Assembly: GCA_934668285.1 (NCBI GenBank)
Contig: CAKUNB010000013.1
Coordinates: 1 to 20,489 of the forward strand
DNA: 20,489 bases
Source of the DNA: an uncultured Oscillospiraceae bacterium
Lineage (GTDB): Bacteria; Bacillota; Clostridia; Oscillospirales; Oscillospiraceae
Reading direction: 5' to 3'
Shown: positions 13,451 through 18,887 of the stretch, piece by piece
How the letters are laid out: each line of letters starts with the position of its first letter
Numbering within the stretch: position 1 is the first letter of the stretch
The notes under the pieces: generated by a model
The model's database searches: none
The model's input: the letters and a program-made list of their open reading frames with translations, nothing else
Told to the model about the DNA's origin: nothing
Program-made: the position numbers and the translations under genes

Positions 13451-13992
13451 TGGCTATCAAAGAAAATATGGACTTATACAGATGTGAAAAATGCAAAAAG
13501 CTTTATACATCTGAGTACGCTGCGAATATATGTTGTAAGCAATATCATTGTAGAGTATGCGGAAAAGAAACACCGCAGTATATGTTGATTTGCGATTCTT
13601 GCGCAGAGCATGAACGCTTTGAAAAAGCAAGAAAAATGACTCTGGCAGAGTATTATGAAGAGTTCCCAGGCAACATGCTCTATTACGGAGAAGAATTCTA
13701 TGACGATATCGAATCTCTATTAGACAGCATTGATTGTGACTATGAGGATATTCCAAAGTATGTATATGGAACAACAATGGAAAGCATGGAGATCGACGCA
13801 AATCAAATGCTGCAGCAAGCAGAAGAAGATTCGGATGTGGAAGACTTTTATTTTGATGATGTCGCCGCTAAAGAACTAAGAGAATTTGTTAAGCAGTGGA
13901 ACGCAAAATACGCTAAAAGCTACTATTCGTGGAATGACAAGGTAGTTGTTATGCTTCCTCCGGAATACCAGAAGGAGCGTGTCAATGATTAA
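13450..13992 (+). CDS. Zinc-finger N-terminal protein of unknown function
   Basis: 180 residues. The N-terminal ~50 carry four Cys pairs or near-pairs (YRCEKCKKLY, ICCKQYHCRVCGKE, LICDSCAEHE), a double zinc-ribbon. The rest is acidic and helical (YYGEEFYDDIESLLDSIDCDYEDI; EEDSDVEDFYFDDVAAKELREF). The pattern resembles small clostridial phage proteins that pair a ribbon with a charged helical domain. The ATG overlaps the Dam-type gene stop by one base. It overlaps the macro domain gene by 8 nt. Function unknown; the strong negative charge could suggest DNA mimicry or protein binding, but this is speculation. Confidence 0.7.
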   Translation: MAIKENMDLYRCEKCKKLYTSEYAANICCKQYHCRVCGKETPQYMLICDSCAEHERFEKARKMTLAEYYEEFPGNMLYYGEEFYDDIESLLDSIDCDYEDIPKYVYGTTMESMEIDANQMLQQAEEDSDVEDFYFDDVAAKELREFVKQWNAKYAKSYYSWNDKVVVMLPPEYQKERVND

Positions 13993-14455
13993 AACAGTTA
14001 TTGGAGACATTCTTGATGCAACGGAAGATATTATCTGCCATCAGGTAAATTGTCGGGGTGTAATGGGAGCCGGTGTAGCCAAAACGCTTTGTACTCGTTG
14101 GCCTATCATCAAGAAGACATACATCCGATATTGCAGAAGATTTGAAAATCAAAATGAACTTCTTGGTCATGTTCTTTCTGTAGAAGTTGATCCGAATAAG
14201 ACTGTTCTGAATATTTTTGGGCAGCTTGATTATGGCAGAGACAAGTACCGCAAGTACACGGACTATGTTGCTCTCACAAAAGCATTTGATGAGATCCGCA
14301 GTAAGTATCATAACAAATCACTTGCATTCCCATATGGATTTGGCTGTGGATTAGCAAATGGTGACTGGAATATCGTTGAAAATATGCTCAACACATACTT
14401 TGGGGATATGGATGTTACTATTTACAGGCTTTCGGCAAAGGATGGTGAAGTATGA
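13985..14455 (+). CDS. Macro domain protein (Poa1p/ADP-ribose phosphatase type)
   Basis: 156-residue macro domain, which binds ADP-ribose or its derivatives. The key segments are HQVNCRGVMGAGVAKTL (19-35, the ADP-ribose binding N-x-x-G-x-x-G-x-G stretch) and SLAFPYGFGCGLANGDWNIV, resembling the Poa1p-like 'P.G.G.G.gG.W' loop. FGQLDYGRDKYRKYTDYVAL lies between them. The start is ATG 13985 with AAGGAG 8 nt before it, inside the previous stop. The enzyme could remove phosphate from ADP-ribose-1''-phosphate or strip ADP-ribose. Phage macro domains are candidates for repairing tRNA-splicing by-products or for reversing NAD-based defence, but the activity is not shown. Confidence 0.88.
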   Translation: MIKTVIGDILDATEDIICHQVNCRGVMGAGVAKTLCTRWPIIKKTYIRYCRRFENQNELLGHVLSVEVDPNKTVLNIFGQLDYGRDKYRKYTDYVALTKAFDEIRSKYHNKSLAFPYGFGCGLANGDWNIVENMLNTYFGDMDVTIYRLSAKDGEV

Positions 14456-15009: not shown

Positions 15010-15685
15010 GCTAATTGCCATCGGAGACATTCACGGATGTCTCCACACACTAAAAGAGCTTCTGAAAAGTGTGGATTATAGCAGTCAGACAGATACATTA
15101 GTGTTTGTTGGTGACTACATAGATCGCGGAGCAAATAGCTGTGAGACAGTGGCGTTTCTTCGCAAGCTTCAGCAACAGGTAGGAAAAGATAATTGTATTT
15201 GTCTTCGCGGCAATCATGAACAAATGGCGATTGACGCATTTATAAGCGGAGATAATTCGCTTTGGTTTTACAATGGTGGATACTCGACCGTATGTAGTTA
15301 CGATAGAAATGGCACAGATATTGAATCGGATATTGGTTGGTTTAAGACTCTTCCGCTTGTGTACGATACACCAGAAATTATATTCTGTCATGCCGGTCTG
15401 TCAAAACCACTACTAAAGGACAATACTGCACACGATTTGATTTGGGGACGCGACTGGATTCGACATAATGACCGTAGACCACGGGAAAAGCAAGTGATTT
15501 TCGGGCATACCCCAAGTAGAACTGGTGCTGCCTACACCGTAGCAACTGGCGATATTTGCATCGACTCAGCATGTGTTTATGGCGGAAAGCTATGCGCCTT
15601 AGCAATCAACGAAGATGGAAACAGTAAACTATTCTATGCAGACAAGTCCGAAGAGGACGATGAAAACTTGCAAGGAATTAGTTAA
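15002..15685 (+). CDS. Protein phosphatase-like metallophosphoesterase (lambda PP/PrpE type)
   Basis: 227-residue metallophosphatase with the Ser/Thr protein phosphatase signatures: IGDIHGC (7-13), FVGDYIDRG (35-43), and LRGNHEQM (68-75). FCHAG and a late IFGHTPSRTG follow. This matches the bacteriophage lambda phosphatase (NinI) and PrpE/ApaH-like class, which act on phosphoproteins or Ap4A. It is a different subgroup from the phosphoesterase at 11926-12486. ATG at 15002 overlaps the previous stop. The stop (15685) lies just upstream of the next start. Possible targets include host kinases used in defence or dinucleoside polyphosphates; neither is shown. Confidence 0.88.
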   Translation: MDRLIAIGDIHGCLHTLKELLKSVDYSSQTDTLVFVGDYIDRGANSCETVAFLRKLQQQVGKDNCICLRGNHEQMAIDAFISGDNSLWFYNGGYSTVCSYDRNGTDIESDIGWFKTLPLVYDTPEIIFCHAGLSKPLLKDNTAHDLIWGRDWIRHNDRRPREKQVIFGHTPSRTGAAYTVATGDICIDSACVYGGKLCALAINEDGNSKLFYADKSEEDDENLQGIS

Positions 15686-15707: not shown

Positions 15708-16034
15708 ATGTTCAAAATTCTTATTTTCTATAAGAGCATTTCTGCGGTTAAAAACTACCTCGAAATGTTTAGAAATATGCCATTGATGATTTTTGAAGAA
15801 ACTCGCAACGGCTTCACATTCAGTGGTGAAAAAATATGCGTGAAAGGTATCCGACGTGCCAAAATCTCAGATCAGCACCGTGGACATCGAGCGCATATTA
15901 TCGCTGTGCAAGAAGAACTCACATGGGCTGAAGATTGGAACGAGGTTCGAGACCGCATCGTTTACCCAGTGCTTCAAACACCGATTGATATTCAAATCTT
16001 TGATGGAGATTACCCAGATGAACAAGCAGCCTAA
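15708..16034 (+). CDS. Hypothetical protein (108 aa)
   Basis: No named family is recognised. Start chosen is ATG 15708 (MFKILIFYKSISAVKN), 9 nt after GGAG (15695-15698). An in-frame ATG at 15660 would add 16 residues and overlap the previous gene, and has a purine-rich AGAGGA only 2 nt upstream. The protein is mixed alpha/beta with a basic middle (GIRRAKISDQHRGHRAHIIAVQ) and ends TPIDIQIFDGDYPDEQAA. It overlaps the next small gene by 17 nt. It lies at the end of the accessory run, before the integration module. Confidence 0.6.
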   Translation: MFKILIFYKSISAVKNYLEMFRNMPLMIFEETRNGFTFSGEKICVKGIRRAKISDQHRGHRAHIIAVQEELTWAEDWNEVRDRIVYPVLQTPIDIQIFDGDYPDEQAA

Positions 16035-16191
16035 AGAAGAAAAGCCTAAGTATATTACGGATGAAAGCGGTACGCAGTTTTTCGTAATTGGCAATACGAA
16101 AATCCGTGTAACAGAACATTTTAATAGCAAGGGTAAACATATCAAAGATCTCGTAGAAAATGCCGTACAATACGCCGCAAATGCGGCTTAA
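16018..16191 (+). CDS. Small TnpW-like protein upstream of the recombinase
   Basis: 57-residue protein: lysine-rich start (MNKQPKEEKPKYITDE), then a beta-like GTQFFVIGNTKIRVTEHFN and a helical end (GKHIKDLVENAVQYAAN). The 'IGNT.y.V..hF....k....k...' pattern and position immediately before a large serine recombinase match the TnpW-like small proteins of Tn4451/Tn1549-type elements in Clostridia. That is my recognition from memory, at moderate confidence. GGAG at 16005-16008 is 9 nt before the ATG. A GCCGCA/TGCGGC hairpin covers its last codons. A role as accessory factor for the recombinase is possible; none is proven. Confidence 0.55.
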   Translation: MNKQPKEEKPKYITDESGTQFFVIGNTKIRVTEHFNSKGKHIKDLVENAVQYAANAA

Positions 16192-16195
16192 TACC

Positions 16196-16263
16196 GGTGA
16201 CAACAGCTCGTACTTGTGATATAATTACGCGGTAAGCTTATCATAAGTGCGAGTTGTTTCACT
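16196..16263 (+). repeat. Long inverted repeat overlapping the recombinase promoter
   Basis: Arms at 16202-16221 and 16239-16258 are 20 nt each. In the plus-strand RNA every position pairs: 17 Watson-Crick pairs and three G-U pairs. After a single bulged C (16201), GGTGA (16196-16200) pairs with TCACT (16259-16263), with one further G-U pair. Inside the 17-nt loop, TTAC (16225-16228) can pair with GTAA (16232-16235). The first arm contains the promoter spacer and part of the -10, so a transcript started from this promoter lacks that arm. A read-through transcript would carry the full stem. It could act as a DNA operator, an RNA structure, or both. Confidence 0.8.
16197..16225 (+). promoter_or_regulatory. 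Near-consensus sigma-A promoter for the serine recombinase
   Basis: GTGACA (16197-16202) is five of six bases of the -35 consensus. After exactly 17 nt follows TATAAT (16220-16225), a perfect -10 box, with TGA (16217-16219) giving an extended -10. Transcription would start near 16232, about 56 nt before the GTG start codon. No other good promoter was seen in the 96-nt gap. The promoter lies within the long inverted repeat listed next. Confidence 0.65.
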
Positions 16264-16287
16264 ACTAAAGGAGGTTGCTAAACAACG

Positions 16288-17898
16288 GTGAAACAACTGA
16301 TTTATCGCGTCGCGCTCTATATGCGATTGAGCCGAGACGATGAGGATTACGGAGAAAGCGTTAGTATTGAAACCCAGCGCAAAATCATCACACAATTTGC
16401 TAATGAACAGCACTTCATTATAGTTGACGAGTACATTGATGATGGTTGGAGCGGTACGAACTTTGATCGCCCAGCATTCCAACGCATGATGGAAGATGTC
16501 GAGTCTGGAAAGGTGAATTGCATTATTACCAAGGATCTCTCCCGCCTTGGTCGTGAGCATATTATGATGGACTATTATCTGGAATTCTACTTTCCAGAAA
16601 AACGAATCCGCTATATTGCCGTCACAGAAAATGAAGATACAGAAAAAGGCTTGTCTGACTTCGTTCCGTTCAAGAACCTATTCAATGAATGGTTTGCAAA
16701 GGATACAAGCCGTAAAGTCAAAGCTGCTTTCAAAGCAAAGTTTGCTGCTGGAGATCGTATTTGCGCGTATGTTAAAATCGGATATAAGCGGCATCCAGAG
16801 ATCAAAAACCGTATTGTGCCAGATGAAGAAACAAGGTGGATACCTGAGAAAATCTTTGATTTGGCTTATCATGGTGCTGGAGCTGCTAAAATTACAAGGA
16901 CTCTAATTGCAGAGAAAGTTCCTACGCCGTCCTGGATTAACTACCAGAGATTCGGGACATTCGCTCATGTATATCAAAATGCCTCAGAAGAAAAACGGTA
17001 CGCATGGACGGTTGCACAAGTTAAGTACATCTTGAAAGATGAAACCTACATTGGGAATACAGTTCACTACAAACAGACGAACATATCTTTCAAGAACAAG
17101 AAACGCATTCGCAAGCCAGAAGATGAATGGTGGAGAATAGAAAACACTCACGAGGGATTGATTCCAAAGGAGATGTTTGATTCTGTTCAGGCGCAAATTG
17201 CCACCAGACGTCGGATGCAGAAAGATCATACAACGCATATCTTCTCCGGACTTGTCAAATGTGCCGATTGCGGATGGTCAATGCGTTTCGGTACGAACAG
17301 GCAAAACAAAAACCCATACAGCCACTACACATGCAGCAAGTATGGGCAAGTAGGAATTCATTGTTCTGCACACTATATCCGATATGATGTACTGTATGCC
17401 TATGTGCTATCAAGAATTCAGTATTGGGCGGCACAAGCCGTACAAGACGAGGATGCTCTTTTAGAAAGGCTTCTTCAAACTGGCAATGCAAAGCAGAATG
17501 CCGAGCGAAAAAAGATCGCTGACGATTTGAAGAGAGCTGAAAAACGGCAAAAGGAGTTGGACAACCTTTTCGCTAAGCTATATGAGGATCGAATTGCTGA
17601 GAGGATTACAGAGCGAAACTTCATTATGCTATCTGCAAAATATCAGGAAGAGCAAAATGCTTTGGATGGTAAGATAGACCTACTTAATGGGCAAATCAGT
17701 GAAAATTCTGAGCGATATAGCAATATTGAAACTTGGGTGAAACTGATTAAGCAGTACGCATCTCCAACGGAATTAGACTCAATTTTACTCAATGCTCTTG
17801 TGGAAAAAATCACAGTCCACGAGGCAGTTAAACACGAAGATGGAAGTCGAGAGCAAGAGGTCGAGATTTTCTATAAGTTTGTAGGAAAGATCGACTGA
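16288..17898 (+). CDS. Large serine recombinase (TnpX-like integrase)
   Basis: Site-specific integrase of the large serine recombinase family. The N-terminal resolvase domain shows ALYMRLSRDDED with the catalytic serine at S15 and R13, then DDGWSGTNFDRPAF and ITKDLSRLGREH. A recombinase domain follows (about 165-285), then a zinc ribbon (C325, C328, C349, C359) and a helical, charged coiled-coil region (about 400-475) before the C-terminal DUF4368-like part. 536 residues is normal. The start is GTG 16288; an in-frame TAA at 16279 excludes earlier starts. AAAGGAGG (16267-16274) is 13 nt away, longer than usual. The gene is the last of the element and ends about 15-30 nt from the host junction, as integrases often do. 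Confidence 0.95.
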   Translation: MKQLIYRVALYMRLSRDDEDYGESVSIETQRKIITQFANEQHFIIVDEYIDDGWSGTNFDRPAFQRMMEDVESGKVNCIITKDLSRLGREHIMMDYYLEFYFPEKRIRYIAVTENEDTEKGLSDFVPFKNLFNEWFAKDTSRKVKAAFKAKFAAGDRICAYVKIGYKRHPEIKNRIVPDEETRWIPEKIFDLAYHGAGAAKITRTLIAEKVPTPSWINYQRFGTFAHVYQNASEEKRYAWTVAQVKYILKDETYIGNTVHYKQTNISFKNKKRIRKPEDEWWRIENTHEGLIPKEMFDSVQAQIATRRRMQKDHTTHIFSGLVKCADCGWSMRFGTNRQNKNPYSHYTCSKYGQVGIHCSAHYIRYDVLYAYVLSRIQYWAAQAVQDEDALLERLLQTGNAKQNAERKKIADDLKRAEKRQKELDNLFAKLYEDRIAERITERNFIMLSAKYQEEQNALDGKIDLLNGQISENSERYSNIETWVKLIKQYASPTELDSILLNALVEKITVHEAVKHEDGSREQEVEIFYKFVGKID

Positions 17899-17931
17899 AA
17901 GACCAATATCTTTAAGTATGTGAATGGGGGC
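17899..17931 (+). other. Right attachment site (element-host junction)
   Basis: Composition and codon use change abruptly just after the recombinase stop (17896-17898). The host regulator's frame is open from 17916 (after TAA 17913-17915), and its recognisable protein sequence begins at about E-W-G-L-S-A-P-E-L (17922 onward), in the part of an XRE domain that normally reads 'SKWE.G...P'. The crossover therefore lies between about 17913 and 17931, with GAATGGGGG as the likely host-derived or shared core. The left junction is outside the window, so the core cannot be confirmed by a direct repeat. Confidence 0.75.
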
Positions 17932-18887
17932 TGTCTGCGCCGGAGCTGCGGCTGATCGTGGAGCTGGCGGACTTCTTCGACACGTCAGTCGACGTTCTTC
18001 TGGGCTACGAGATGAAGGACAACCGGCTGGACGCGACGCTGGCGCTGCTCGAGCGATGCCGTCGGGAGAAGGATCCTGCCGGTCTGGCGGAGGCGGAAAA
18101 GGCGCTGAAAAAATATCCCAACAGCTTTGCGGTCGTCTATCGCAGTGCGGCAATGTATCGTGTCTTTGCCATTGAAGGCAGCGATCCGGCGCTGGCTCGG
18201 CGGGCGCTGGAGCTTTATGACCGCGCGCGGCTGCTGCTTGCGCAAAACAGCGACCCGGCGATCAGCGAGGCAACGCTCGGCGGCGAAACGGCGCAGGTCT
18301 GGCTTGCGCTGGGCCAGCCCGAGCGGGCCGTCGCACTGTGGAAGCAGCACAACGCGGGCGGCCTGTATAATGATCAGCTCGGCATGACGCTGGCGGCGGA
18401 CTGCAATCGGCCGGACGAGGCGCAGCCGTACCTTTCCGCCGCGCTGCTGGGCATCGTCGCCGCCGTCATTCACGTCGTCATGGGCTTTGTCAACGTCTAT
18501 CTCAACCGCCGCGCCTACCTTGACGCGCAGGCCGTCCTCCGCTGGGGGCTGGCGGCGCTGGACGGCCTGCGGTGGGACGACGCACCCTGTTTTCTGGACA
18601 AAACCGTCTGCGTGCTGCTCGTCTGCCTCGCCGAGGCGCAGGAAAGGCTGGGCGACGCGCCCGCCGCGCGGGACACGCTCACGCAGGCACGGGTACTGGC
18701 CGCCCGTTTCGATGCCGCGCCGAGCTACCGCGTCGATTCCATCCGCTTCGTCACGCCCTCAACGCTGACCAGCATCTACGACGATCTCGGCGCGACCGCG
18801 CTCGACGGCCTGCGCGGCGCCGTCCGCTCGATGGAGAACGACGCTCTGACCGCGCTTTGGAAGGAAGTGGAAGAAAATGAACCGTAA
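17916..18887 (+). pseudogene. Host XRE-family regulator with TPR-like domain, 5' part displaced by the integration
   Basis: The reading frame starts in the middle of an HTH domain: EWGLSAPELRLIVELADFFDTSVDVLLGYEM is the standard end of an XRE/Cro helix-turn-helix ('SKWE.G...P.L..L..LA..F.vSvD.LLG.e'). The first ~30-40 residues, including the recognition helix, are missing and must lie at the left end of the element. The remaining ~290 residues are Ala/Leu-rich and helical (TPR-like repeats, about 45-300). A GTG at 17958 could serve as a start for a truncated product, but without DNA-binding function. The stop overlaps the ABC gene by 11 nt. XRE/TPR proteins beside ABC exporters commonly regulate them, so integration probably disables this control. 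Confidence 0.85.

Follow-up and report, generated by a model that had tools for sequence, protein, structure and literature searches.

In the insertion sequences IS10 and IS50 (Tn5), read-through RNA hides the transposase start and RNA from the element's own promoter leaves it open. Gene e of phage T4 and genes like it are transcribed as a long early RNA that is closed and a short late RNA that is open. In attenuators and riboswitches, mutually exclusive hairpins, with A/B pairing in competition with B/C pairing, decide access to the start. In IS200, structure around the ribosome binding site of the transposase leader keeps transposase low, and small/antisense RNA acts as well. A leader structure around the ribosome binding site also holds transposase low in ISPpu9, again with small/antisense RNA, and the available part of the report on that element describes no origin-dependent exchange of pairing partners (PMC8450116). 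The int gene of ICEKp1 has two alternative promoters, and stem-loops in its leader attenuate full-length transcripts that come from a host tRNA promoter; the effect reported is attenuation, and neither translational control nor a swap at the start codon (PMC13023037).

The leader described here, in front of a large serine recombinase gene, shares features with each of these systems. With IS10 and IS50 it has in common an inverted repeat around the promoter, an own-promoter RNA that would lack one arm, and translation that would be set by the origin of the RNA, but a third arm is predicted to close the own-promoter RNA and to leave the read-through RNA open. As with T4 e, one gene would have two transcription start sites whose RNAs differ in leader fold and translation; here, however, the long RNA is predicted to be the open one and the short RNA the closed one. 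The structure near the ribosome binding site recalls IS200 and ISPpu9, and leader stem-loops that act on RNA reading in from outside recall ICEKp1. Unlike in attenuators and riboswitches, the input would be the presence or absence of one arm, determined by where transcription starts, and not a ligand or a stalled ribosome. Competing hairpins are known, as are start-site-dependent leaders; their combination in a three-arm leader of reversed logic, in front of large serine recombinase genes, seems not to have been described, as no account of such a leader was found in the open-licence papers searched.

Large serine recombinases mobilise phages and other elements and serve as tools of genome engineering, and to our knowledge little has been described of how those of integrated elements stay low and rise with transfer or lytic genes. 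An origin-sensing leader, if true, would explain how excision is coupled to an operon without a dedicated activator. It would also reverse the textbook logic of IS10 and IS50, and its signature can be searched for. The results below further suggest that the first codons of recombinase genes carry regulatory RNA, which matters for recombinase annotation.

Of the window, that is, the whole stretch of 20,489 nucleotides analysed, about 17.9 kb is phage-like and carries plus-strand genes in a row; Pfam matches include anaerobic ribonucleotide reductase, a DNA polymerase III finger domain and a calcineurin-like phosphoesterase (coordinates refer to the plus strand unless otherwise stated). The last gene of the row (16288-17898) starts with GTG at 16288 and encodes a large serine recombinase of 536 amino acids, whose Resolvase, Recombinase, zinc ribbon and DUF4368 domains all score above the Pfam cut-offs and so assign it, by domain content, to the DUF4368 or TndX-TnpX-like large serine recombinases. 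DUF4368 is present in 63% of the enzymes of a clade rich in multi-targeting recombinases, a clade that takes in TndX-like enzymes, according to the report describing it (PMC10083194). A recombinase 99% identical to that of the window (L001) is found at the end of an IMG/VR viral contig of 127 kb. Past the recombinase the G+C content climbs from 0.43 to 0.66, suggesting the end of the element, and the junction between element and host likely lies at 17899-17960, just 3' of the gene. By eye, the open reading frame (ORF) after the junction resembles the tail end of a DNA-binding regulator that the element has disrupted, but it matched none of the Pfam and NCBIfam families searched. Elsewhere in the window, a protein encoded at 13946-14455 has a sub-cut-off match to the DarG antitoxin, and the minus strand has a perfect promoter-like sequence, TTGACA-16-TATAAT (15377-15404), which lies within the phosphoesterase ORF and is directed away from the recombinase.

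For comparison we used a set of 7 and a set of 80 viral-contig loci, with overlap between the two, and 80 genome loci, the two sets of 80 being the best 80 of 291 and the best 80 of 164 relatives. Among the best 80 of 164, the phages and mobile elements that carry DUF4368 recombinases are mostly from Firmicutes by their record titles. The loci that are at least 48% identical and have sufficient upstream DNA provided 44 distinct leaders, which redundancy reduction brought to 28, and 26 of these, the window among them, were analysed as the close loci.

The first-pass annotation of this DNA had drawn a 25-pair hairpin in plus-strand RNA directly upstream of the recombinase, with a promoter in its left arm, and our folds reproduce it in detail. 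In the fold of 16196-16264, positions 16196-16200 and 16202-16221 (arm A, 16196-16221, with C16201 bulged) pair with 16239-16263 (arm B) in 25 pairs, such that two 20-nt arms are paired throughout, three of the pairs being G-U, and five extra pairs form around the bulged C. At -36.5 kcal/mol the hairpin is far beyond chance (z -8.8), as 200 dinucleotide shuffles averaged -13.5 kcal/mol (sd 2.6) and none of them folded as low; the minus strand of the same segment folds at -20.3 kcal/mol. As had been annotated, 3 nt separate the end of the stem (16263) from the Shine-Dalgarno sequence AAAGGAGG (16267-16274). A search of 15900-16600 against Rfam returned no match up to E 1, and nothing reached the gathering score at the hairpin site in nine relatives. 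In one of the relatives a pemK RNA match (L022:2560-2657, E 1e-7) lies about 340 nt upstream of the recombinase.

Arm A holds the -35 and the spacer of the promoter, which consists of a -35-like hexamer GTGACA (16197-16202), a 17-nt spacer and a -10 TATAAT with a TG extension (16220-16225), an 11/12 match. By itself such a site is weak evidence, because our promoter scan found 11 promoter-like sites in 4.5 kb where 8.0 were expected. The site gains weight because it recurs: when relatives were grouped into 50 lineages of less than 70% mutual identity, a promoter score that reached or exceeded the coding-background 95th percentile was found in this position in 9/9 lineages of at least 48% identity, and upstream of the gene in 11/16 at 35-48% and in 13/25 below 35%. 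Given the promoter's position within the left arm, its transcript is predicted to start near 16232, in the hairpin loop, which supports the annotation's view that RNA from this promoter lacks arm A. Arm A would be found in read-through RNA only and, as in IS10 and IS50, an inverted-repeat arm lies upstream of the predicted internal transcription start.

Read-through from an upstream operon, also part of the annotation, is physically plausible, as in 26/26 close loci the same strand has an ORF, at least 45 codons long, whose end lies 67-156 nt 5' of the recombinase (the call in L012 looks to be in the wrong frame). In the window a small ORF of 57 amino acids from its ATG (16018-16191), whose stop lies 4 nt before arm A, could encode a directionality factor or a regulator. 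The C-termini of many of the upstream ORFs in the close loci look similar by eye. "TnpW-like" is a weak label for these ORFs, because of six sequences searched against Pfam only that of L046 matched TnpW, and below the cut-off.

The annotation missed a third arm. In 15900-18100 a repeat search found two unrelated pairs and one perfect 11-nt inverted repeat that links 16252-16262 with 16288-16298 and through which the 3' half of arm B (16252-16263) is complementary to arm C (16287-16298), which consists of the GTG start and the next codons. Counting one flanking G-U pair, B:C amounts to 12 contiguous pairs with the Shine-Dalgarno sequence in the loop, and its stacking energy in the window is -20.3 kcal/mol. 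As controls we took 329 genes of the fetched DNA that have a good Shine-Dalgarno sequence; only one was as low, and that gene was the window's own, re-fetched as L168 and included among the 329. Because 16252-16263 is common to both, A:B and B:C are mutually exclusive. Read-through RNA (16180-16290 and 16150-16330) folds into the A:B hairpin, and RNA from the predicted start (16232-16330) forms the B:C hairpin instead; one segment thus serves either of two stable helices, and the B:C helix closes the start. As a whole the promoter-started RNA folds unexceptionally, with z -2.1 for 16232-16305 (8/200 shuffles as good) and z -1.0 for 16232-16330 (32/200). In its fold a small GUUG/CAAC hairpin of 4 pairs (16274-16286) forms between the Shine-Dalgarno sequence and the start, and may cut down their long 13-nt spacing.

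The layout of A, B and promoter is fixed throughout the close clade, with typical letters CCCACGCTTAT...ATAC/AT for A, GTATTGTAAGCGTGGGTTGTTTC for B and ATGAAACAACCATACAATAC for C; the middle of B pairs with A and its flanks pair with C. When segments were positioned by their likeness to the consensus, regardless of pairing, 27 loci (L029 added to the 26) had 203/216 and 220/243 positions paired in the two B:C helices and 275/324 in A:B, in a segment table where L022 and L046, both left in, are misplaced. In alignment A4, which holds only 12 loci chosen for a common register, 17 B:C pairs were paired in 202/202 cells, in comparison with 33-58.9% when one partner was slid. Two of 500 shuffles reached the paired percentage and covariation score of B:C in these 12 loci, and 52 reached its number of double-changed pairs. 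The double changes are of two kinds: in L013 and L014 a G-C pair is replaced by A-U, with a silent Tyr codon change (TAC to TAT) on the coding side, and in L006 U-A is replaced by C-G. Four loci with a shifted register and altered N-terminal residues (L018, L023, L093 and L096) keep a B:C helix, by eye in general and by score in L018; L029 has one B:C pair broken by an A-C mismatch.

Compensatory change in homologues, the test that the annotation had set for its hairpin, came out positive for A:B, with moderate strength. Over 20 pairs and 26 sequences, 82.6% of A:B cells were paired as against at most 49.6% when slid, and the misplacement of arm A in L022 and L046, which also affects alignment A2, lowers A:B counts there. 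The five measures applied to A:B were reached by 46, 304, 6, 327 and 30 of 500 shuffles, respectively, the 46 referring to paired percentage, the 6 to double-changed cells and the 30 to the covariation score; columns 32/77 and 34/75 changed on both sides in six sequences each. Covariation is thus present in both helices, that of A:B being modest by shuffles and stronger across lineages. Two close loci, L054 and L065, were left out of the 26 because arm A is partly replaced: they share B, -10 and gene start with L047, but carry different sequence at the -35 region and in place of the left part of arm A.

Two further observations are consistent with pairing in plus-strand RNA. With locked registers, G-U exceeded A-C combinations over the 26 close loci by 41 to 15 in A:B and by 24 to 6 in B:C (relatedness uncorrected, and L022 and L046 misplaced in this table as well), as expected under selection on plus-strand RNA, which the annotation had proposed from the three G-U pairs and which the better plus-strand fold likewise supports. 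In addition, 11 distinct genes contain two copies of Tyr-Asn-Thr, and the copy facing B reads TACAATAC in 11/11, the other copy in 1/11; several of the 11 come from one close group, so they do not count as independent cases.

In the window, opening 15 nt around the start is predicted to cost 3.6 kcal/mol when the RNA reads through and 9.5 kcal/mol when it starts at the promoter and its right arm pairs with the start codon. The proposal that read-through is off and the own promoter on was thus not borne out. Across the 26 close loci the start was harder to open in promoter-started RNA by more than 0.5 kcal/mol in 25 and easier in none, with a mean difference of +4.5 kcal/mol and mean opening costs of 8.2 (promoter-started) and 3.7 kcal/mol (read-through). 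After dinucleotide shuffling of the first codons, the promoter-started cost fell to 4.9 kcal/mol, the read-through cost stayed at 3.8 kcal/mol and the mean difference shrank to +1.2 kcal/mol. The real first codons therefore specifically close the short RNA, and the read-through RNA is no tighter than its shuffles. Individually, 13 of the 26 loci exceed 95% of their 30 shuffles and the other 13 do not, and the predicted difference is only 0.4-0.8 kcal/mol in L002, L004, L015 and L016. In L015 and L016 an extra insert between B and the Shine-Dalgarno sequence can form a hairpin of its own, by eye, and the accessibility difference nearly vanishes. Among 32 hand-picked more distant loci the promoter-started RNA was harder to open in 14 and easier in 7 (mean +0.7 kcal/mol), with automatic promoter calls that are doubtful at some distant loci and probably also at L004.

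The reading that best accounts for the computed features, namely two competing helices, their conservation and covariation, the position of the promoter and the difference in start accessibility, is a switch that responds to transcript origin and would couple recombinase synthesis to the upstream operon; on balance we think this reading is probably correct. Segment B would alternate between A, upstream of the internal start, and C, the start and first codons. RNA from the internal promoter would begin in the loop between A and B and carry only B and C; lacking A, it would fold B onto the start codon, and translation starts would be blocked or reduced. Repression may be partial, since the Shine-Dalgarno sequence stays unpaired in the B:C loop. 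Read-through RNA from the upstream operon of the element would contain A, which would pair with B, leave C free and allow the recombinase to be translated. Because A:B is made before C is transcribed and is more stable, such RNA should stay open, and the A:B stem should little hinder the ribosome because it ends 24 nt before the start codon. Synthesis of the recombinase, and hence excision, would in this way be coupled to expression of the upstream operon, with the internal promoter giving only a low basal level. We infer from the computed features that the promoter is active, that B:C reduces translation in vivo, that the operon and the recombinase are coupled and that this is the biological purpose of the leader. 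The switch gives no reason for keeping a good promoter whose RNA is closed; a low basal supply for integration is one possible reason. A cut by RNase III in the long stem could part A from B, re-close the start and add a layer of control.

Pairing between B and C recurs in distant lineages with unrelated letters, for instance TAGTCCTGTT:AACAGGACTA in L102 (38% identity), CGGCTCTCA:TGAGAGCCG in L104 (37%) and TTTGTTGCCG:CGGCAACAAA in L105, and also in L113, L115 and L130. We scored it in fixed windows, 32 nt before the Shine-Dalgarno sequence for B and -2 to +30 for C. In the 50 lineages, a lineage's own B:C averaged -12.5 kcal/mol and foreign combinations -9.0 kcal/mol, a difference reached in 0/10,000 permutations. 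The own pairing was within the best 5% of foreign pairs in 18/50 lineages, which by identity divide into 7/9 (at least 48%), 6/16 (35-48%) and 5/25 (below 35%); measured against the 329 other genes, 8/9, 6/16 and 5/25 lineages were at or below the 5th percentile. For A:B, the 33 lineages with a promoter had a mean of -13.9 kcal/mol for their own arms and -9.8 kcal/mol for foreign ones (0/10,000 permutations), with 7/33 in the best 5%. RNAduplex also separated own from foreign pairings (-18.0 and -13.3 kcal/mol; 0/2000 permutations) in 148 of 162 loci, the others being excluded for insufficient DNA upstream or for lack of a start with a Shine-Dalgarno sequence. Its energies are noisy because long gapped duplexes arise by chance, and for that reason we used contiguous helices. 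When only the upstream strand was shuffled, locus by locus, 24/54 loci reached p 0.05 and 6 reached 0.01; single loci are thus weak and the case rests on sets.

A second sample of 65 further genome loci (L169-L233) yielded 49 loci, 16 being dropped because the match started too far in, there was no start or Shine-Dalgarno sequence, or there was no recombinase. Of 42 distinct loci, 20 were at or below the 5th percentile of the controls and 6 at or below the 1st. L200 and L202 are circular, as they were found only by an RNA model built on B:C; without them and five exact copies of first-sample loci, 13/35 were at or below the 5th percentile, some of the 35 being kin of first-sample loci (for example L213, 82% identical to L120). 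The RNA model R1 is narrow: 5/291 genomes matched, and four of the matches lie before recombinases, the weakest (L203) being without one. The strongest locus of the second sample, L208, has 17 contiguous B:C pairs, and the 12 letters of its A are found again in C. Arm A of L130, near -116, duplicates the start region, ATG included, in the manner of a start-codon decoy. Overall, B:C is less frequent in distant loci and the on/off difference there is weak. We give about even weight to the broader proposition that this is a widespread device of DUF4368 large serine recombinases, in which the promoter would sit within the very arm that can free the start codon, own-promoter mRNA would be silent and read-through mRNA alone translated, with a three-arm logic that outlasts complete sequence turnover and has shaped the N-terminal codons.

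Among the alternatives, one keeps B:C and drops the origin signal: B:C would be a general brake or a thermometer on promoter-started RNA, or be targeted there by an unknown factor, and A:B would mainly be a by-product or stabiliser. A promoter with a closed product does invite a further signal, and strong B:C (34 of the 87 loci, counting those with enough upstream DNA) is wider than a significant A partner, since an upstream partner for the same B was found at p <=0.05 in 16/34 and not in the other 18. Those 16 are, however, about nine times what is expected at the 5% level, and in most cases (12/16) the partner has 3 nt or more in common with the B:C segment (without L200 and L202, 14/32 loci have a partner and 11 overlap). 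The fixed arrangement of both arms and promoter in the close clade also speaks against this explanation, which we consider unlikely.

Somewhat less likely still is protection of the IS10/IS50 type, as the annotation had it, with read-through RNA silenced by the stem next to the Shine-Dalgarno sequence or by RNase III, and promoter-started RNA translated. The short distance between long stem and Shine-Dalgarno sequence and the conserved left-arm promoter agree with it, and RNase III cleavage could conceivably remove A and let the remaining B pair with C. But the A:B stem leaves the Shine-Dalgarno sequence and start free, the conserved B:C pairing has no use in such a logic, and it is the promoter-started RNA whose start is harder to open in nearly all close loci. 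The analogy with IS10 and IS50 therefore survives in the layout of arm and promoter and fails in direction, which thermodynamic prediction reverses in the window and in the same 25 of the 26 close loci.

A purely DNA-level role, with the inverted repeats as binding sites for a repressor or the recombinase over the promoter, is very improbable. The arms do overlap the -35 and -10, and palindromes close to promoters are common; against this stand the plus-strand preference for G-U over A-C, the far better fold of the plus strand, silent codon choice that tracks pairing, and the variable spacing of a B that has two different partners.

Least probable of all is that A:B is a terminator or attenuator of read-through, after which the promoter restarts transcription: the ICEKp1 int leader offers a precedent (PMC13023037) and 23/26 close loci have 5 or 6 T among the eight bases after the GGG of B (GAG in the window), but the U-rich stretch of the window lies inside the stem, itself paired with A, and not as a T run directly after it, the window scan called no terminator-like site at the hairpin, and L018, L023 and L096, with 2 to 4 T, keep a B:C helix, so that complementarity to C explains the letters better.

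Other pairing plans were seen at some distant loci. The promoter spacer of L120 is complementary to codons ~8-12, with 13 contiguous pairs, and by eye the same holds for L129 and L213. In L144, L155, L161, L162 and L164 an upstream segment pairs with the stretch from the Shine-Dalgarno sequence to the ATG, and not with the first codons.
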